Positions 2,544 to 22,105 of a stretch of DNA of 23,121 nucleotides are shown here, one piece after another. Source of the DNA: a virus. Position 1 is the stretch's first letter. Each line of letters starts with the position of its first letter. The stretch spans positions 1 to 23,121 of the IMG/VR virus record IMGVR_UViG_3300021138_000182. The stretch is one strand, 5' to 3'. Under the pieces are notes generated by a model. That model saw nothing but the letters and a program-made list of their open reading frames with translations. It was not told where the DNA came from and ran no database searches. The translations under genes and the position numbers were made by a program.

Positions 2544-3257
2544 TTATTCACAATGCCATTTACGGAGACTTTTGTTTATACGACTATTTGGATCTCGTTT
2601 GGTTTTAGCCCCAGTGCGATGTTTCTTCATACCCTTCATACGAGCACAGAATGATTTACGACGTTTGGAGGCCTTGCTGCCTTTCTTCAATTTGCTAGGT
2701 TTGGTAGTAACAGCAGTTTGTAGTTTACTACCCGGATGGCTACGACGATAACTGGCCACGCCCTTTTTGTTTAGGCCACCGTTCTTATTCTTGCCCGACG
2801 ACTTTTGCCAGGCTTCGGCTTCGCTTAATAGATCTTCATCTTCGACTAGTTCGAGATCTTCCCAAATTGCTTCACTGTCTACACCGTGCTGTTCAGCCCA
2901 ATATTCGATCATAGACTCGATCATATTAAATTGTTCTTCTAACTCTATATCTTCGTTGGGCACACAATTACGAACTTGTCCACCGTTCTTACCTGTTTTG
3001 GTTCCGGCAGCATGATGACCAGGCCAGCATTTGGTATAACCGTTGCTGTCCTTGGCACCTTTCTTAATTTCATTAAGATTGCCGTGTGTTTGACACATAC
3101 CGCAGTCGGGGCATGTCATTTCCATCATCATATCTTCATTGTGCTTCTTTTTACCTGCACAATGAGCCTTTTGACTAAAGCCTTTAGGATGAGAACAATT
3201 GATGCTGTTCTTATACTTTTGACTCCATGATTCGGTGATAAATTCTTGTGCTCTCAT
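2544..3257 (-). CDS. Cys-rich phage protein with basic C-terminal domain, probable head-internal protein
   Basis: A 237-residue protein. The N-terminus MRAQEFITE|S resembles T4 internal-protein propeptides, which the prohead protease cuts after (I/L)-x-E. A second match, LLSE|A, falls at residues 143-147. Residues 20-55 contain CSHPKGFSQKAHC and CPDCGMC, suggesting zinc binding, and residues 74-100 contain KCWPGHHAAG and NCVPNE. The middle (100-148) is very acidic. The C-terminal 85 residues are very basic, with NGGLNKKGVASYRR, RRKSFCARMKGMK and NSRINKSLRKWHC. I recall this tail as a phage domain of unknown function (possibly DUF6321; number from memory, unchecked). The start overlaps the deaminase-like gene stop by ATGA. 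A DNA-binding, packaged role is inference. Confidence 0.8.
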   Translation of the reverse strand: MRAQEFITESWSQKYKNSINCSHPKGFSQKAHCAGKKKHNEDMMMEMTCPDCGMCQTHGNLNEIKKGAKDSNGYTKCWPGHHAAGTKTGKNGGQVRNCVPNEDIELEEQFNMIESMIEYWAEQHGVDSEAIWEDLELVEDEDLLSEAEAWQKSSGKNKNGGLNKKGVASYRRSHPGSKLQTAVTTKPSKLKKGSKASKRRKSFCARMKGMKKHRTGAKTKRDPNSRINKSLRKWHCE

Positions 3258-3934
3258 TTCTTTTTAGCTCTTCCTGCTTTCATATTGGCCAGCCAGTGCG
3301 ACATGCGTGCCTTTTCACCTGTAGAGTGTTTGGCAGTATTTCTTAAACTGCTAACTGATGCTTTGGTATTTACTCCGCTGCGTTTGGCAAGTCCCTTGCG
3401 TCCAGGGTGCTTACCATCGGCAAAATTTTCATCTAATGGATGATCTTCGTCACCTAGGAATGTGTCAGCAAACTTCTTACACAATGCTCGTATATCTTCG
3501 TTGGTAGTTGCTTCTACGGTAAATTCAAAATCTTCATCGTGTTGGCTGGGATCCATATAGCCGCAGTAGACTTTCTTTACTGGGCTATCATTGATTAAAT
3601 CTGTACAACTACCTTGATAACGATCTGCCATAGCGCCATCACAAGGACTCAATGTTGTCAGTATAATACTACCATGGGGGATCTCGCCGTACTTGGATTC
3701 ATATGCTGCCATAGCGTTGCGTTCGGCATGACTCCATTTACCGTCTCGGTTAGTGCTGGTACTAGCTACCATGCGATGCTTGGGATCTAGAACACAGGCA
3801 GCAACCATGCCGTATTGCTTGGGATCTTTTTGCTGTCCTTTGACGATCTCGGCACAGAGTTCAACTAGATACTTGTCGAGATGTTCTCGATCATGTATCA
3901 AGTAGTCTTTCTCTGTAAATTCTCTTAAGTTCAT
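3254..3934 (-). CDS. Zinc deaminase-fold protein (cytidine/dCMP or RibD-like)
   Basis: A 226-residue protein. The deaminase zinc signature is visible: H69-A-E71 in KWSHAERNAM and P97-C98 in TTLSPCDGA, with the second cysteine C110 in YQGSC. The C98-C110 gap is longer than the usual PC-x2-C, which sets it apart from T4 dCMP deaminase. E71 is the expected proton shuttle, so catalysis is possible on a nucleoside, nucleotide, pterin or flavin-type substrate that the sequence does not reveal. After residue 170 comes a basic tail containing HPGRKGLAKRSGVNTK and GEKARMSHWLANMK, ending in KKK, similar in character to tails of neighbouring proteins. The N-terminus MNLREFTE echoes the propeptide-like starts of its neighbours. 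ATGA overlaps join it to genes on both sides. Confidence 0.85.
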   Translation of the reverse strand: MNLREFTEKDYLIHDREHLDKYLVELCAEIVKGQQKDPKQYGMVAACVLDPKHRMVASTSTNRDGKWSHAERNAMAAYESKYGEIPHGSIILTTLSPCDGAMADRYQGSCTDLINDSPVKKVYCGYMDPSQHDEDFEFTVEATTNEDIRALCKKFADTFLGDEDHPLDENFADGKHPGRKGLAKRSGVNTKASVSSLRNTAKHSTGEKARMSHWLANMKAGRAKKK

Positions 3935-6522
3935 TTTTTCTTGCTTTTGTTTTTAGCACCGTAACTAGCAGCAATGGCCATTTGACGAACTTTTTCTGGA
4001 CTCTTGTTTTTAAACTGATGATGTCCCTTGGCGTTAGGTGTTTTAGCGGCTTTGCTAAAATCGTTGATGTATTTGTCCACAGGGTCATTGGCTTTGAGCT
4101 TTTCGCCTAGTTTAGCAGACAGTGCTTCCATATAACTATCTTCTTGCTTTAACGCTTGTTGTTTGACCATTTTACGGATAAGAGCCTTGTCCTCTTTTTC
4201 ATCTGGGTGATCTTCGCTTTCGCCCATATCGTGCTCATCGTCTACAGCATTGAATACAGCATCTAGATAGTCTGCTGCTTTAGTGACCTTGCTTTGTTGC
4301 CAAGGTTCTAATGTATCACCTTGTGCCTGCATTTGTTTAACAGCATGGCGAAGTTTGGCAGCATGTTTGACTAGGCTCTTTAATTGGCTAGTAGTCATAC
4401 TGTTGGCTTCATCATTATACCATTCTGGGTTTTCTCGAACAGCATCATTGTGTCCGGCACCTGCCCATTTGCTAGTATCTTTAGATGCAGTATTATAAGA
4501 ACCCTGACCCCAACCGCCTGTGGCTGTGCTGTGGTCTTCGGCAATACTTTCTTTAACTCCGGCCTTTTTCTTTTTAGCAATAGCAATAGCGGCCTGTTGA
4601 GCAGGGCTGCTTGCCTCCGCCACACCTTGTTTTACCGCAAACGCTACCGGTCGATTATACATCCTTCCTGGTAGTTCATTCCCTGCGGGATGGTTGCCAT
4701 GAACTATGTCAGTCGCAAAGAAATAACCGCTTGCTGAATCCCATTCACCTACATAAACATTACCGTCTTTGGTTTTTAGGTAAAGTTCAGATTGATTTTC
4801 ATCATCGGTCTTTGGGAACTTATCTATAGGAAGAAATTGGATACCTTCCGCCACACCTTTTTTAATCGCATCTATATTGCCAAACTTACGATAGTATGCT
4901 AATGCGTGTTTGAAATGCTCGTTGTATTCACTGGTGCCCTTTTCATAACCGTGTTGTGTTAGTTCACGCTCAATATGACGAACCAATGGCATTTCTGCTT
5001 TTAATAATTCTGGTGCACCTTCCGCCACACCTTGCTCGTTAATTCTTAACTGTTTCTTTGTGTAGGCGATATTACTATCAAAACTTTGTTGACCTTTTTC
5101 TTCTGTGGGTTTGGTTATATCTGAATGAACTTGTTTTCCACCAGCATAAACTCTTACCTGATATCCCCATGGTGTCTTATGTAGTTCATGTGTGTATGGT
5201 CCTATTGTTTCAGAGCGGATAACAGATTCGTTTAGTGAGCCTTCCGCCACACCTTCCTTCATTCTGCGACCATGTTGATCTAATACTATAAGTTTGCCGC
5301 CGAATTTTTTAATATGAGCCAATGCCAAGTCTCGTGATAGGAATGTTTTAACAAACTCATTTTTGCTATCAGGAAATACACCATACTCAGTTGGTTCAGG
5401 GGTATATGTAAGTTTACCTTTTGCTTCCGCCACACCTTGCTTAACAAACTGAACATTTAATTTAGCATTTTTCCACAATGGATTTTTAGGATCCATTCTT
5501 TGCTGTAGTAACCATATAGCAGATACTCTGTGTGCGCCATCTTCAAACTTACCGTTTAATACTATTGCCGGAGGCAACTTCGCTAAACTTTCTGGATGAT
5601 CCTTCAAGTAAGTAGCATACTCTATAACTTTTTTAGTGACGCCCCAACTATAATCTTTAGCGTCCCAATCATCAACTACATTATTATAATAAGGCACCCC
5701 CGGCACAGATGATATAATATCTTTTACAGTCATTTGGCGAGTTTGTATTTTAGCATCGGAGCCAAACTGTTTTGGAGCACCTGAACTTGGTCCCGGTTGA
5801 GGGACGCCTTCCGCCACACCTTCCTGTAATCCCGGAATAGGATGTAATCCTTTGGGTATCTGCCCAGTCCAGTGTTGCGACCCGGGCTTTGCTGGTAAAT
5901 CTCTTATGGCATTTTCTTCCGCTAACTCACACAATTCAGTATGATGTAAAAATATAGTGCTACCACAATCATAACAAGGATAGTTATCAAATGGATCTTC
6001 GTCGTCATCGCCACCGCTCATAGCAAATTCGTTCAAGCCTTCCGCCACACCTTCTTCTTTTTTAACAACAAAGTTTATGTTTTTGTTTCCGGTGTTGGGA
6101 TCAATGTATGTGCTTTTGAATACTTTACCGCCGTGTTCTCGAGCGTAGGCAAATGCTTCATGTTTGTTATCAAATCTATTAGTAGGCGGTTTAATCATAG
6201 GGCTTGCTTCTTCCGCCATATCTAATTCACGGGCTTTGTGTTTTACATCACCTTGTTTAGCAGCCTTCTTCTTATCCTTGTGAGCACCGGCACCGCCAGT
6301 AGTGGCATTCTTGGCCACAAAGTTTCTTGGTTTACTAGCAGGCACTTTAGCCTTGTCGCCTTCTTGAGCAATAAGATTCTGTCCTGGTTTACGGCGTTGA
6401 ACACCGCCAATGCCACCACTAACGCTAGCAATGCCGCCAGTACTTGTTCCGCCACTTGTAGCAGATTCTAACGTATAAACGGTAGTGTCTTTAAATTTTT
6501 TAGGTTTAAATTCGTTGTTCAT
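3931..6522 (-). CDS. 863-residue modular protein with seven GVAE(G/A) linkers, candidate head polyprotein
   Basis: I do not recognise the whole protein. Gly-Val-Ala-Glu followed by Gly or Ala occurs with G at residues 158, 235, 363, 424, 498, 556 and 633; weaker relatives are DMAEE (101-105) and SIAED (659-663). The linkers separate modules of 58-128 residues that do not resemble one another. Module 158-234 has CYDCGS plus HHTELC (possible zinc site). Module 235-362 has a ParB/Srx-like LNGKFEDGAHRVSA. The N-terminus is Gly/Ser/Thr-rich (ATSGGTSTGGIASV) and then Lys/Ala-rich. The C-terminal 200 residues are helical and charged, ending SPEKVRQMAIAASYGAKNKS and KKK. A small residue after Glu fits a T4-type prohead protease site (hydrophobic-x-E|G/A), so a cut polyprotein is one reading. 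ATGA overlaps link both neighbours. Confidence 0.85.
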   Translation of the reverse strand: MNNEFKPKKFKDTTVYTLESATSGGTSTGGIASVSGGIGGVQRRKPGQNLIAQEGDKAKVPASKPRNFVAKNATTGGAGAHKDKKKAAKQGDVKHKARELDMAEEASPMIKPPTNRFDNKHEAFAYAREHGGKVFKSTYIDPNTGNKNINFVVKKEEGVAEGLNEFAMSGGDDDEDPFDNYPCYDCGSTIFLHHTELCELAEENAIRDLPAKPGSQHWTGQIPKGLHPIPGLQEGVAEGVPQPGPSSGAPKQFGSDAKIQTRQMTVKDIISSVPGVPYYNNVVDDWDAKDYSWGVTKKVIEYATYLKDHPESLAKLPPAIVLNGKFEDGAHRVSAIWLLQQRMDPKNPLWKNAKLNVQFVKQGVAEAKGKLTYTPEPTEYGVFPDSKNEFVKTFLSRDLALAHIKKFGGKLIVLDQHGRRMKEGVAEGSLNESVIRSETIGPYTHELHKTPWGYQVRVYAGGKQVHSDITKPTEEKGQQSFDSNIAYTKKQLRINEQGVAEGAPELLKAEMPLVRHIERELTQHGYEKGTSEYNEHFKHALAYYRKFGNIDAIKKGVAEGIQFLPIDKFPKTDDENQSELYLKTKDGNVYVGEWDSASGYFFATDIVHGNHPAGNELPGRMYNRPVAFAVKQGVAEASSPAQQAAIAIAKKKKAGVKESIAEDHSTATGGWGQGSYNTASKDTSKWAGAGHNDAVRENPEWYNDEANSMTTSQLKSLVKHAAKLRHAVKQMQAQGDTLEPWQQSKVTKAADYLDAVFNAVDDEHDMGESEDHPDEKEDKALIRKMVKQQALKQEDSYMEALSAKLGEKLKANDPVDKYINDFSKAAKTPNAKGHHQFKNKSPEKVRQMAIAASYGAKNKSKKK
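4616..6053 (-). repeat. Seven in-frame copies of a 13-nt repeat (AAGGTGTGGCGGA) coding GVAE
   Basis: On the plus strand TCCGCCACACCTT is identical at 4616-4628, 4847-4859, 5021-5033, 5243-5255, 5426-5438, 5810-5822 and 6041-6053. Coding-strand consensus is AAGGTGTGGCGGAAG; only the copy at 4616 differs, having GAG for the last Glu codon. Spacings are 231, 174, 222, 183, 384 and 231 nt, all multiples of three. The same codons (GGT GTG GCG) are used every time although sequences between copies are unrelated, so constraint or recent spread acts on the DNA and not only on the protein. Confidence 0.95.
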
Positions 6523-6890
6523 TTCTTTTTATTCCTAGGATTCCAATCAGCAACTGGGCTGGTCTTGTTGACATCTTTACTTTCTCTACTGCCACCGGGT
6601 GTTAGTTGAACTTTTGGAGTTCCAATCAATCCAGCGGCTGCATTTAAAATTTCATCCTCAGCCTGTGTATATCCAATAGTGACAAATTTTAACCCTGTTG
6701 GACCTGCAACATCCATTTTTTGATTTGGCATACCGGCAAGAGCAACACCAAAACGATAAGCAGCATAACCACTACTATTATCTAATTCTGGCCAGATATG
6801 ACTATTAGGTAGTGCTTCAGCTACATCAGGGTGCCAACCGCTTGCACCTGAATAGTCTTTGGCTTCTTTTACAAATTCTCTTGCTCTCAT
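6519..6890 (-). CDS. Conserved phage protein with propeptide-like N-terminus, unknown function
   Basis: A 123-residue protein. The start MRAREFVKE|A at 6890 is chosen over an earlier in-frame start because it overlaps the upstream stop as ATGA, like the other junctions of this block, and because MRAREF matches the MRAQEF start of the protein at 2544-3257. FVKE|A fits a loose prohead-protease site. The body contains GWHPDVAEALPNSHIW, YAAYRFGVALAG and FVTIGYTQAEDEIL, then a polar tail ending in RNKKK. There is no signal peptide or membrane segment. The start of the 863-residue protein overlaps its end by ATGA. Probably a virion component; the function is not recognised. Confidence 0.78.
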   Translation of the reverse strand: MRAREFVKEAKDYSGASGWHPDVAEALPNSHIWPELDNSSGYAAYRFGVALAGMPNQKMDVAGPTGLKFVTIGYTQAEDEILNAAAGLIGTPKVQLTPGGSRESKDVNKTSPVADWNPRNKKK

Positions 6891-7183
6891 ATCTTTGTCC
6901 TTTGTCCGTACCATAGTTCAAACCACGCAGGTGTTCCTGGACGGATATTGTTAGCCTTCATGTATTGCGATTTCTCTGCACCTGTCATGCCGGCACTATC
7001 AGCAGTATTTAGTTTAATATCTTCTGCTACTCTTGCTCGATATTCTGCTAGTTTAACCGTGCTGCCCAGTCCGCCTAGATGGCTGGCAATCTTTAATTTG
7101 TGTATAGGGTCAGTGGGAGCAAGATAGCAGTCGTTGGGGCTATCTGGTAGAAAATTATCCGAAGTAATCTTATACTGCTTCAT
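6887..7183 (-). CDS. Small protein, unknown function
   Basis: A 98-residue soluble protein starting MKQYKITSDNFLPDSPNDCY. The middle is LKIASHLGGLGSTVKLAEYR and the end is RPGTPAWFELWYG. No known domain is visible. It is held by ATGA overlaps to the 1199-residue gene upstream and to the gene starting at 6890 downstream, so it is expressed with them. The short conserved-looking C-terminus with an aromatic patch suggests a protein-contact role, but this is a guess. Confidence 0.7.
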   Translation of the reverse strand: MKQYKITSDNFLPDSPNDCYLAPTDPIHKLKIASHLGGLGSTVKLAEYRARVAEDIKLNTADSAGMTGAEKSQYMKANNIRPGTPAWFELWYGQRTKI

Positions 7184-10100
7184 CGTAGTTGGCTCTCAAT
7201 TAGGCGAGCAATTGCTTCTGCCATGGCTAGTTCAACATCTTCATTGATGCCGGGCTGTGCAGGAGCACTAGTAAGTTTAGCCCACATCTTCAAAGGATTT
7301 AATTTAACACCTTTTTTAGCGTAGGCATCAATAAAAAATTCTCTGGCTGTTTCGACCTTTTCGTCCTTGACGGGCGCTTTGCTAGTTAGTTGAACAGTTT
7401 TGCCATCTAGAGTATCATACATAATGTTATACCATTTAGTATCGATACGCATTCTTGGTCTAGAGATCACATGATGTAGTTCGTTTAATTCGCTATGATC
7501 CTCGAGTGCTGCTTTGTTTGCAGCCATCCAACGCCCTAGATCTTTTTTTTCATAGTCTGTAAGTTTTCCACCGGACTTATGTTTGTTTAATAAATTTTGA
7601 AAATAAGGATTTTTTATACCTCGTTCGCGTCGTGCTATTTCTAAACGATCTGCATACGAGTCTGGCTTTACAATTTTCTTTGGAGTAGGTTTGCTTAATA
7701 ATCCGAATAATTCGCTGATATCTTCTTTATCAGTCTTTTTAGGTTCTTCTTTTTTAGGAATACTGCTAGGTGTTCTCTTTAAACTGGCATCACTTTTAGC
7801 ACGCTGACGATCCCAAGCATTGCTGAGTTTAGTAGCAGTGCTCATGCGGGCTTCATTTAATGGACGAACAATGGCGTTGAACAATCTTTGTTCAGCTACC
7901 GGTTGTTGTTGCGGTTGTTGAGATTGCTGTGGTTCTTTGATTCCCATATTCTTCCTTGCTACATCCATTAGATGTTTAATCCACTCTGGCGGTAATTGTG
8001 TGGCGCCGAATTGTCCACCGTTGAACGCTTGATTCCAAGTTTTAAATGCTTGATCAGGTGTTCCGGTTTTTAACGCATTTCGTAATGCTGTGCCACTTAC
8101 GCCAGTACCGCCGGCACCTTCTTCACGTGAAGTGACTTCTGGAATTACCTTGACATTTTCATACCCGGGGAATTTATTAACAGCCTTCATCAATGCCGCT
8201 GCCATTTGTTCGGCCATTGTTCCTCTATCTGTACCCACTACAATATAGATAGTGTTATAGCGGGGCGATTTACCTGGTAATGGATTGATCAATTCGTGTT
8301 TGACCTTTTGCAGCAACGATCCACCATCCATGGTCACTGTGCTGATATTCTTGACATAATTGGGATACAGCATGTGCCATGTTTTTAATTTATCGGGCAC
8401 TGGAATAGGATCGTCTTTTCCTTCAGCACCTCCGATAAAGAAGTAAGGATCTCCATTTGTGCGTTTTGCCAATTCAACGGCATGTCCGAATAATTGTTGG
8501 TGCCCTATGTGACCAATGGCACTGCCGATGGCAACTACGGCTGTTTTATTTTCATTATCTCTTGGTCGTTCTGTGCGGGCATTTTGTTTAGCTGCTTGTT
8601 TAGCAGCAATGACATCACGCTGTTCATTGCTGGTGACTTTGATAGGACCAAGGCGGCTATTGATAACAATACCTTCGTAGTCCTTGCCCAACATGTCCTT
8701 ACCAATAATATTAGGATCATTGATAATGGCTTTTTCTAAAGCAGCTTTGATTGGTTGTAATTTTTCTTCGACTTCTCGTTTTAATTGTTGGCTAACACGA
8801 TCTCTCTTGCCTGCTGTGTCGCTGACAATTTGTTTAAGTGCTTCAATGTTTTCCAATGGATTAATAATTTCAGTGACATCCAATGCTTCATTTTGTGTTA
8901 GGCTATTGTTGATAAACATAACATTGCCTGCTTGGCCGACACTGAGTAATTCTTTAATAAACCCATGTGAGTCAGGTAAGTCTTCTCCGCTATCTGCATC
9001 AACTACTCTAAATGGTACTAGGGCTAATTGTACACCCTCTGGTAATTTGTCGTAGTGTATACCTACAAATTTTAATCGACCTTCTGGAGTTTCTGTAGCA
9101 AATGGTAGATATAAAACTTCGCAGGTGACCTGTTTGTTTATTAAAAAATCTGGTCCTAACTTACTATCTACAAGCTGAACAGCATCCATCATCGCATAAA
9201 ACAAATCATCGAACAATTTAGCACGACCTAACACTTCTGGATCAGTTGTGCCTTTCTTTTGATGATGTGCTACGAAGCCTGCGGCATATCGCGGCTCTGT
9301 TCTACTGGTAGCCATAAAAGGTTTACCTTCTGCATTCTTACCGAATCGGCCACCGAATCCGTCTACTTTGACATTTAACGGAATGTTTTGTAGTTTAAAA
9401 CGACCATTTCCGTCGTGGATTTCGTCTAATAGATCTAAAAAATCCTGAGCCTTTAAATCGTGTAAGTGTGGCATACCCTTACGGAATTGTGCTTTAACTG
9501 CTGGAGCAGCGTCGCCTTCTGCTTCTCTAACAGCCATTTTCTTCATAGCAGCACGAGGTTGAGCTACGCCCGGATTGGCTTTCTTAAATGTTTCTACATC
9601 TTTAAAATCTTGCTCATAGGCCTTGGCCATTTGTATAGCCTTGGGACGCATCCCTGCCATCTCTAATTTTTCAAGCATCATATCAATGGCAGCAAATTTA
9701 GTTTCGGCATCACGTTGCGGATCATCGCGGGTAATCATTTGACTACCTGGTTCGAAACAAATTTCTAGGAATGATTCTACAATACCTGCTTTTTTATCGT
9801 GGCTGACATATTTGTTAATTAAGTCCAATGTGCCAATAAAACTTTGTTGTAATTTAGAATCCTCAGGTGTAGGTGCCTGCCCGAAGAACATTTCAAATTG
9901 TGCTGCTAGTCTTTGTTCATAGTTGCGCTCACCGCTTGGAACTTCTTGTAGTACAGGTATCCCATTCTTGAACATCGGCTTGCCGGTGTTGGGATCAATA
10001 TAAGGTTTGAATTTTTCACTAACCCCACCGCCCTGTTTACTGGCCACGGCAAAGGATACAGTGTTTACGACTTCGGGTTCGTTGGAAATTTGTATAGCAC

Positions 10101-10779
10101 GAGTCTTGCCTCGTCCTGCTAATTTTGCTATATAGGCCTGTTTGGCGCTAAGACCACTTAATGATCTATATAGATATTTGTGGAATACACCTTTGATGTT
10201 AGCATTGATGTCATTCCACGCACTGCTATGACTGAATTTAAACCACTCATCTGGTGCATTGGTTTCTGGACTATACCTACCAAATTCAAAATCAATTTGT
10301 ATTTTCATAGGCGGATCTTGAAATTGGAACAGCGCATTGAATTGTTCATTGCCTGCACTAAATCCTAATAAAGTAGTGTCGCCGATTTGTTTATGGGTAT
10401 AAAGAGTTAAAAATTCTTTTACTTGATCTTCTAATGCTTTATTACATTGAGTATCAATGTCACCGACCTTGGGCTTTTTAGCAACAAATTGGTCATCGGT
10501 AATACCTTTGGTATCGAAGAAGTGTAAACTACTACCACCGAGGAACTGCTTACTGCCTAATAGTTCTTTACTCCATAGTGGTGTTTTATACTTAGCAGTA
10601 AAGGCAGCATTGATATCATTTAATAATTTGTCTAGTATAGGAACAATGAATCCGCGAGTATGTACTTTTAAATCGATTTCATCTGCACGGTGAGGATTGT
10701 TGGCATCTTGTTGGTTGGGTAATTCTAAATTACCGCCTTCTGAGATAACCTCACGCTTAAAAATATCTCTTAAAAACAT
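7180..10779 (-). CDS. Giant protein with pol-beta-type, ligase-type and HxGH-type nucleotidyltransferase signatures
   Basis: A 1199-residue protein. Three separate signatures are visible. Residues 80-165: LGGSSL, then GDIDT (D107, D109) and KIQIDFEF (D163), as in pol-beta-like nucleotidyltransferases. Residues 465-716: NVKVDGFGGRFG (K471, KxDG motif I), TCEVLYLP (E554, motif III), YEGIVINSR (702-705, motif IV) and PIKVTS (K714, motif V), the layout of ATP-dependent DNA/RNA ligases. Residues 745-905: IGHIGHQQLF (HxGH type) and VSGTALRNAL (matching ISxTxxR), as in NMNAT or cytidylyltransferases. A Gln/Pro linker (950-962) leads to VAEQ, PLNE|A (974-977) and a charged C-terminal region. The N-terminus VISE|GG fits a prohead protease site. 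The substrate is not predictable; RNA or DNA end repair or NAD chemistry are possible. Confidence 0.85.
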   Translation of the reverse strand: MFLRDIFKREVISEGGNLELPNQQDANNPHRADEIDLKVHTRGFIVPILDKLLNDINAAFTAKYKTPLWSKELLGSKQFLGGSSLHFFDTKGITDDQFVAKKPKVGDIDTQCNKALEDQVKEFLTLYTHKQIGDTTLLGFSAGNEQFNALFQFQDPPMKIQIDFEFGRYSPETNAPDEWFKFSHSSAWNDINANIKGVFHKYLYRSLSGLSAKQAYIAKLAGRGKTRAIQISNEPEVVNTVSFAVASKQGGGVSEKFKPYIDPNTGKPMFKNGIPVLQEVPSGERNYEQRLAAQFEMFFGQAPTPEDSKLQQSFIGTLDLINKYVSHDKKAGIVESFLEICFEPGSQMITRDDPQRDAETKFAAIDMMLEKLEMAGMRPKAIQMAKAYEQDFKDVETFKKANPGVAQPRAAMKKMAVREAEGDAAPAVKAQFRKGMPHLHDLKAQDFLDLLDEIHDGNGRFKLQNIPLNVKVDGFGGRFGKNAEGKPFMATSRTEPRYAAGFVAHHQKKGTTDPEVLGRAKLFDDLFYAMMDAVQLVDSKLGPDFLINKQVTCEVLYLPFATETPEGRLKFVGIHYDKLPEGVQLALVPFRVVDADSGEDLPDSHGFIKELLSVGQAGNVMFINNSLTQNEALDVTEIINPLENIEALKQIVSDTAGKRDRVSQQLKREVEEKLQPIKAALEKAIINDPNIIGKDMLGKDYEGIVINSRLGPIKVTSNEQRDVIAAKQAAKQNARTERPRDNENKTAVVAIGSAIGHIGHQQLFGHAVELAKRTNGDPYFFIGGAEGKDDPIPVPDKLKTWHMLYPNYVKNISTVTMDGGSLLQKVKHELINPLPGKSPRYNTIYIVVGTDRGTMAEQMAAALMKAVNKFPGYENVKVIPEVTSREEGAGGTGVSGTALRNALKTGTPDQAFKTWNQAFNGGQFGATQLPPEWIKHLMDVARKNMGIKEPQQSQQPQQQPVAEQRLFNAIVRPLNEARMSTATKLSNAWDRQRAKSDASLKRTPSSIPKKEEPKKTDKEDISELFGLLSKPTPKKIVKPDSYADRLEIARRERGIKNPYFQNLLNKHKSGGKLTDYEKKDLGRWMAANKAALEDHSELNELHHVISRPRMRIDTKWYNIMYDTLDGKTVQLTSKAPVKDEKVETAREFFIDAYAKKGVKLNPLKMWAKLTSAPAQPGINEDVELAMAEAIARLIESQLR

Positions 10780-21526: not shown

Positions 21527-22105
21527 ATGTATTTACAATACTATGTCTATGCCTATTTGAGAAAAGATGGCACTCCGTATTATATAGGAAAGGGACAAGG
21601 ATATCGTGCCCGATCAAAAGAACATCTTGTTAAACCTCCAAAAGATCGATCTAGAATAGTATATTTAGAAAAGAATCTTACAGACCTCGGAGCACTTGCA
21701 ATCGAACGTAGGATGATTAGATGGTATGGTCGAAAAGATTTAGGAACAGGTATACTTCATAATAGAACAGATGGCGGAGATGGTGCATCTGGGGCTATTC
21801 GATCAGAAGAATTTAAACAAAGTGTTAGCCAACGATTTAAGGGCAGGGTTAGTCCTACTAAAGGAACAGTTGCGTGGAATAAAGGGATTCCTATGTCTGA
21901 TAATGCTAAACAAAAGGCTTCTCAGAAATTAAAAGGAATGACAGCTTGGAACAAGGGAATCCCAGTAACCGACGAATCAAATATTAAACGTAAAGCAAAA
22001 CAAACAGGCATATTAAAACCAATTATAGTTTGCCCCTATTGCGGGAAAGAAGGAGGCAAACCTGCGATGATAAGGCATCACTTTGATAATTGTAAATTAT
22101 TGTAA
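21527..22105 (+). CDS. GIY-YIG homing endonuclease with NUMOD3 repeats and zinc finger
   Basis: A 192-residue free-standing homing endonuclease. The N-terminal GIY-YIG domain has YVYAYLRKDGTPYYIGKG (6-23, with GTPYYIG for the second half of the motif), R26 and catalytic E60 in ALAIERRMIRWYG. Residues 92-160 contain NUMOD3-type repeats: SEEFKQSVSQRFKGR and two copies of AWNKGIP (116-122, 140-146). The C-terminus has CPYCGKEGG (C169, C172) with H184/H185 and C189, probably a zinc finger for DNA recognition. No intron boundaries are seen. It sits between phoH and gp44 against the main strand, a typical place for a selfish gene inserted into a replication cluster. Its 3' end overlaps the 3' end of gp44 by 9 nt. 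Confidence 0.93.
   Translation: MYLQYYVYAYLRKDGTPYYIGKGQGYRARSKEHLVKPPKDRSRIVYLEKNLTDLGALAIERRMIRWYGRKDLGTGILHNRTDGGDGASGAIRSEEFKQSVSQRFKGRVSPTKGTVAWNKGIPMSDNAKQKASQKLKGMTAWNKGIPVTDESNIKRKAKQTGILKPIIVCPYCGKEGGKPAMIRHHFDNCKLL

Follow-up and report, generated by a model that had tools for sequence, protein, structure and literature searches.

The stretch of DNA analysed here, which we call the window, is the IMG/VR virus record IMGVR_UViG_3300021138_000182 at its full length of 23,121 bases, and all window coordinates refer to that record. By our own reading of its translations, the gene set of the window appears T4-like. One of its genes encodes a protein of 863 amino acids in which mutually unlike modules are joined by seven GVAE linkers. 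We propose, with good confidence, that this protein is a head-internal polyprotein of a T4-like phage that is cut by the prohead protease and whose cassettes are exchanged at the linker. Two results are brought together in this proposal: cassettes are gained, lost and replaced exactly at the linker, and the view that the linker is a capsid-protease cut site is well supported by sequence comparison. The original prediction, made from the letters of the window, had posed a polyprotein and a growing collection of cassettes as alternatives; both appear to hold, and they are not alternatives but belong together. The parts of the open reading frame (ORF) are as follows, a slash marking a junction in this list and throughout.

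3931-6522, minus strand: ORF of the candidate cassette polyprotein, 863 amino acids, from the ORF translation.
6052-6522, minus strand: N-terminal segment M0 (residues 1-157), with the propeptide-like start MNNEFKPKKFKDTTVYTLE/SATSGG.
6039-6053, minus strand: linker 1 (GVAE at residue 158), AAGGTGTGGCGGAAG.
5821-6039, minus strand: module M1 (residues 162-234), beginning GLNEFAMSGGDDDED.
5808-5822, minus strand: linker 2 (GVAE at residue 235).
5437-5808, minus strand: module M2 (residues 239-362), ParB/sulfiredoxin-like.
5424-5438, minus strand: linker 3 (GVAE at residue 363).
5254-5424, minus strand: module M3 (residues 367-423).
5241-5255, minus strand: linker 4 (GVAE at residue 424).
5032-5241, minus strand: module M4 (residues 428-497).
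5019-5033, minus strand: linker 5 (GVAE at residue 498).
4858-5019, minus strand: module M5 (residues 502-555).
4845-4859, minus strand: linker 6 (GVAE at residue 556).
4627-4845, minus strand: module M6 (residues 560-632).
4614-4628, minus strand: linker 7 (GVAE at residue 633), with a single mismatch (GAG).
3934-4614, minus strand: C-terminal segment M7 (residues 637-863), the end of the protein being common to relatives.
4537-4548, minus strand: decayed eighth boundary SIAE (residues 659-662), before DHSTATGGWGQ.

The GVAE linker as peptide and as DNA element

The positions originally given for GVAE (residues 158, 235, 363, 424, 498, 556 and 633) are correct, and shuffled proteins hold 0.03 such motifs on average. 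The spacing of 58-128 residues is likewise right as the distance from linker to linker, and becomes 54-124 once the linker is excluded; the claimed dissimilarity of the modules is borne out by the lack of significant pairwise similarity among the segments of the ORF. With its eight mutually dissimilar segments, the protein has the mark of the polyvalent type, namely at least two unrelated domains in one phage polypeptide. The N-terminus of M0 is common to relatives, and the segment has a weak match to DUF7230 at residues 64-99. The start MNNEFKPKKFKDTTVYTLE/S resembles a capsid-targeting peptide and is longer than the ~10 amino acids of the latter. A medium-confidence model of M2 resembles the ParB/sulfiredoxin fold in each of the two structure libraries, though scores are modest, and a search for homologues of M6 outside the window phage found none.

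The linkers had been described as identical peptides, and their identity at the DNA level is reported here. In the window, AAGGTGTGGCGGAAG occurs six times exactly and once with one change, as AAGGTGTGGCGGAGG, for an expectation of 0.00 copies in dinucleotide shuffles of the window. Among 96 distinct GVAE sites from loci L122-L183, retrieved with peptide patterns from outside the linkers, GGTGTGGCGGAA is found at 75, compared with the 0.45% predicted by codon usage. The chance or codon-bias origin of identical linkers is rejected by the shuffles and the codon-usage expectation. The conservation extends beyond the core: Gln preceding it is coded CAA in 65/65 cases, and the residue before (Q, E, K) and the residue after (G, A, E, D) both vary while the bases AA and G are retained at 90-95%, which gives an extended element of 15-18 bp, (C)AAGGTGTGGCGGAAG(GC). 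Across 281 loci the core is represented by 480 distinct copies, of which 476 are intragenic and read in the GVAE frame. The element is not self-complementary, a repeat search giving a direct repeat only, and inspection of the position profile of linker sites, without a formal test, revealed no prominent start codon of the kind that internal translation start would call for. Within-genome gene conversion was also considered as the cause of linker identity and rejected: linkers are no more alike within a locus than between loci, and thus behave as one shared pool. Many GVAE linkers are directly followed by a motif of the form xLNEF, QLDEK or SLNE (e.g. GVAEGSLNEFAMSGG, GVAEEQLDEKW), which might represent an older junction or a second cut site.

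At least 200 phage contigs of IMG/VR carry the element. Among the IMG/VR matches listed for exact 16- and 18-mers of the linker, many contigs carry 2-4 clustered copies, compared with the 34 hits of the reversed 16-mer control across all IMG/VR, each of them single and unclustered; in 25 long records, about 100 linker sites stand against one site of the reversed control. Spread through cellular genomes was rejected, the 18-mer giving 26 scattered single copies in 84,980 genomes, which is compatible with background. In several linker-bearing genomes, among them the records of L005, L003, L022, L058 and L155 (G001, G020, G024, G012 and G009), at least two linker clusters are separated by distances of kilobases to tens of kilobases, so these phages probably each carry more than one polyprotein gene.

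The linker as a candidate capsid-protease cut site

One argument for cutting comes from junctions that have lost the linker. Distinct in-register junctions that lack GVAE number 194, and in 130 of them a hydrophobic-x-Glu motif stands directly before the module, compared with 2.5% of random positions. When a single residue of the linker has changed, it is G in 18 cases, A in 11, V in 9 (solely to M, I or L) and E in 1. In T4, residues 8 and 10 (P3 and P1) of the IPIII targeting peptide govern its processing (PMC9026906), and the freedom of G and A together with the constraint on V and E agrees with this. The same modules also exist as separate genes, whose N-terminal peptides are of the capsid-targeting type known from T4 and stop where GVAE would. 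Thus free-standing MRAQEFVAE/AFDRPY, MRIKEIILE/SFDQPY and MRAQEFIVE/AFNQPY correspond to GVAE/AFDQPY within arrays, MRAQEFITE/SWSQKYK and MRSSEFVFE/KWSEKYK to GVAE/EWSQKYK, MRINELFE/NFADGK to GVAE/NFADGK, and MRADEIINE/DWQKVN to GVAE/DWQKVN. In an offset test, hydrophobic-x-Glu ended at the exact start of the module in 26 of 36 free-standing genes, for 0-7 at other offsets. These comparisons show, at the level of sequence, that the end of the linker is equivalent to the predicted capsid-targeting cleavage position.

It could be argued that the linker is a recombination junction only, and that the protein enters the host intact as one long multidomain chain, as N4 vRNAP or an uncut polyvalent protein would. 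The turnover of cassettes at the linker is indeed shown independently of cleavage, and certain polyvalent phage proteins are packaged unprocessed (PMC5512222). However, a pure DNA junction predicts no rule at the protein level after decay, whereas V changes to M, I or L only and E is almost always kept, and it does not account for the same modules starting directly behind peptides of the capsid-targeting type. We regard whole injection as improbable.

The genomes concerned encode the expected machinery. The S77 prohead protease (PF03420) was detected in 12 of the 25 long linker-bearing records, many of which are partial, and all 12 carry the gp23 capsid protein (PF07068); one of the 12 is the record that holds L133, which is related to the window phage. 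Neither family was seen within the 23-kb window. The gp23 proteins of these records have a conserved LxE near their presumed mature start, e.g. KYLAE/SATAG. Cutting by the prohead protease, as originally suggested, is strongly supported by the decayed junctions, by the homologues fronted with capsid-targeting peptides and by the presence of S77 and gp23, the cleavage itself being what we infer from them.

Cultured marine cyanophages encode multi-module proteins built from the same families; a search with the whole protein gave no match to isolates, but searches with conserved modules did. The proteins of S-SM2 (GU071095, 91801-93927, 708 amino acids) and P-SSM2 (271 amino acids), both annotated T4-GC 119, adjoin gp14-gp17, and the 815-amino-acid multi-module protein of S-SCSM2R (PQ898602, 151165-153612) adjoins an NMNAT gene. 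Their junctions include VKE/GWSDKYKK, LKE/DWQKVN, VNE/GAAWTKK and FRE/SWSNKYKK. S-CREM2 gp160 (OR473000, 128342-129235) holds modules at 73-89% identity, with junctions ISE/GKKDACYHK and LEE/KKNCWPG, and a published mass-spectrometric survey lists it among the proteins of purified virions (PMC10665884 Table 3). The same survey records gp154, a cytidylyltransferase from the family to which the 1199-amino-acid neighbour of the window polyprotein belongs (PMC10665884); its authors caution that virion preparations may be contaminated by highly expressed proteins.

The persistence of these homologues in mature virions also bears on the idea that the protein is a core or scaffold-like component, broken into peptides that leave the head like T4 gp22, gp67 and gp68, with the modules as filler. 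Such a role would leave unexplained why module sequences are conserved and folded-looking across phages (M2 at 85-99% identity) and why GNAT, ParB/sulfiredoxin-like and zinc-ribbon types occur among them, and we consider it very improbable. A few modules resemble GNAT acetyltransferases, ParB-like domains, zinc ribbons and DUF6321. Searches of the window ORF and of 111 module representatives recognised no peptidase family. An ADP-ribosyltransferase identity of the YLWHGSR module was dropped after Pfam, PDB sequence and fold searches all returned empty.

Several points weigh against a processed polyprotein of effectors. About a third of the decayed in-register junctions are without hydrophobic-x-E; some are alignment slips and others may be real fusions. 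The protease specificity of the GVAE phages is deduced from motifs, and no cleavage product of a GVAE protein has been observed; the virion data on the cyanophage homologue, in the available text of PMC10665884, are silent on cutting. Most modules have no recognisable function, and the label of effector relies on few cases. Every GVAE record is metagenomic. Lastly, linkers are equally alike within and between genomes, and intragenome gene conversion is not what maintains their identity.

Cassette turnover and the proposed mechanism

The collection of cassettes is directly visible in the comparison of loci. There are 191 families among the 311 distinct modules, and the accumulation curve is not saturated. 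DNA homology between different ORFs starts at linkers in 39% of cases and ends at them in 51%, compared with 6% at random positions. We found 14 clean insertion or deletion events, in which one phage has A-linker-C and another A-linker-B-linker-C, and 4 clean cassette replacements. For the insertion that separates L032 and L300, DNA identity of the two flanks is 100% and 99%; it is 99% and 99% for that of L044 and L131, and 98% and 100% for the replacement between L290 and L075; in L110 and L116 the flanks are 96.9% identical and the protein ends conserved, and the middle cassettes differ. M2 occurs in dozens of contigs with differing neighbours (22 readable contexts). At most 48 of 119 comparable third positions differ among its copies, synonymously, and the adjoining linkers are still mostly DNA-identical. 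The window and L132-L135 have flanking genes 70-88% identical and share M3-M4 at 98.3% DNA identity, and their cassette orders differ. The cassette reading of the original prediction is supported by these clean events, by homology that ends at linkers and by the variety of orders and neighbours. It had proposed a module-by-module search, in which modules indeed recur in other orders and beside other neighbours with the same linker; a constant module order with diverged linkers, which it named as contrary evidence, is the opposite of the pattern observed.

All GVAE records being metagenomic contigs, short repeats might have led assemblers to join unrelated pieces. This explanation is rejected as scarcely credible: the architecture is identical in the independent assemblies of the window, L122, L123 and L124 (99.7-99.9%), as it is at about 100% in those of L132-L135, a single frame stays open throughout with 476 of 480 copies in phase, and the same modules are found in similar multi-module proteins of sequenced isolates.

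We infer that cutting by an S77 protease, ejection, effector function and recombination would together explain the array and the invariance of its DNA. The N-terminal propeptide would carry the polyprotein into the prohead core, where a prohead protease of the S77 (T4 gp21) type would cut after each V-A-E, a case of hydrophobic-x-Glu. About eight small mature proteins would be released, retained in the head and ejected with the DNA, like the T4 internal proteins and Alt. The 15-18 bp of linker DNA would double as an in-frame recombination junction between co-infecting phages. Since cut site and in-frame junction are one sequence, an incoming cassette would arrive in frame and flanked by cut sites. 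The simplest reading attributes the constancy of the linker to two causes: recombination works only between identical copies, and loss of hydrophobic-x-Glu would fuse two products.

It may be asked whether general recombination suffices, or whether the linker is the recognition site of a dedicated enzyme, a site-specific recombinase or homing-type nuclease, that drives insertion; this is compatible with the polyprotein and competes with general recombination only. The invariance of the DNA exceeds codon needs, the linkers act as a single global pool, and the window holds a GIY-YIG endonuclease-like ORF (21527-22105). However, that gene lies 15 kb from the array, and GIY-YIG genes are common in T4-like phages, which weighs against such a role; the linker site is short and non-palindromic, phage homologous recombination could yield the same pattern, and no such enzyme consistently adjoins the array. 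No recombinase or homing nuclease was recognised among the commonest neighbours of 88 non-redundant loci, where neighbours were not profiled singly and whole genomes were not searched. A recognition site of this kind is in our opinion unlikely. A dedicated enzyme or annealing pathway that acts on linker DNA, inserting cassettes from the pool into head polyproteins so that ejected proteins are exchanged singly, is put forward very tentatively; if true, a phage would swap its ejected proteins individually, in frame and flanked by cut sites.

A single short sequence appears to settle the reading frame, release by the capsid protease and the junction of homologous exchange together. The system offers a clear test of whether recombination can hold DNA invariant inside a coding sequence. 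The linker may serve as a marker with which metagenomes can be mined for candidate ejected proteins in their hundreds, some of them perhaps host take-over or counter-defence factors, and the array may represent a natural design for multi-protein delivery from one phage head gene.

Neighbouring genes and comparison with known systems

The neighbours of the array, several of which have starts resembling capsid-targeting peptides or propeptides, are the following.

2544-3257, minus strand: neighbour of 237 amino acids with the capsid-targeting N-terminus MRAQEFITE/, then module SWSQKYK..., and a DUF6321 C-terminus.
3254-3934, minus strand: dCMP-deaminase-like neighbour, with the start MNLREFTEKD, similar to a capsid-targeting peptide.
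6519-6914, minus strand: neighbour ORF with the internal capsid-targeting-like start MRAREFVKE/A.
7180-10779, minus strand: cytidylyltransferase/NMNAT-like neighbour of 1199 amino acids, with the propeptide-like start MFLRDIFKREVISE/GG.
21527-22105, plus strand: GIY-YIG endonuclease-like ORF, on the strand opposite to most genes.

The SWSQKYK module is a separate gene in the window (2544-3257), but stands behind GVAE inside the polyprotein of L132-L135. The deaminase-like neighbour ends in module NFADGKHPGRKG, which is found elsewhere behind GVAE and behind capsid-targeting peptides, and its MNLREFTEKD start suggests a head-carried enzyme. The 1199-amino-acid neighbour is a fusion that combines a phrog_19290 region and a phrog_12709-like region with a cytidylyltransferase, and its N-terminal third is also present in T4-like phages of Campylobacter and Vibrio. 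The GIY-YIG-like ORF is perhaps a homing endonuclease.

In the open-access literature we found no description of such an invariant intragenic DNA linker. A close parallel is offered by IPI-III and Alt of T4, whose capsid-targeting N-termini ending in hydrophobic-x-Glu are matched by those of the free-standing module homologues; S77 and gp23 are encoded in linker-bearing genomes as well, the proteins are small and varied, and relatives of the GVAE proteins occur in virions. T4 packages a handful of internal proteins, each separately encoded and provided with its own targeting peptide, whereas the GVAE phages would fuse many products behind one N-terminus, with internal cut sites in invariant DNA. 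The T4-GC 119 cyanophage proteins (S-SM2 and P-SSM2, with which S-SCSM2R and S-CREM2 gp160 share modules) have in common WSDKYKKSIDC, DUF6321, KKDACYHKVKSRY and several hydrophobic-x-E junctions, but they are devoid of the GVAE DNA linker, their junctions have diverged and they are named hypothetical proteins. The mobile regulatory cassettes (PeSLs) of T4-type phages, reportedly described by Arbiol and colleagues in 2010 (cited in PMC4177764), are said to be intergenic promoter/stem-loop elements. They resemble the GVAE linker in that modules of T4-type phages are shuffled by way of short conserved DNA lying between them; the GVAE linker differs in being intragenic, frame-locked and translated, 476 of 480 copies lying within an ORF. 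It also differs from the integron cassettes, as it has no inverted-repeat recombination site. Recent domain exchange between unrelated phages has been reported as shuffling of protein fragments, in a paper from which the terms linker, protease and polyprotein are absent (PMC10684548). Polyvalent proteins (Iyer et al. 2017, PMC5512222) are similar in their many unrelated domains per injected-type protein, their domain rearrangement and, to judge from the few ParB/sulfiredoxin-like modules, their ParB-like domains, and are explicitly likened to viral polyproteins in the available text of that paper. The release proposed there involves an embedded metallopeptidase, whereas no peptidase was found in the GVAE ORF, and the same text describes neither an invariant DNA linker nor a prohead-protease site at every junction. 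By analogy, the GVAE system would work like the internal proteins of T4, combined with the polyprotein logic proposed for the polyvalent proteins.

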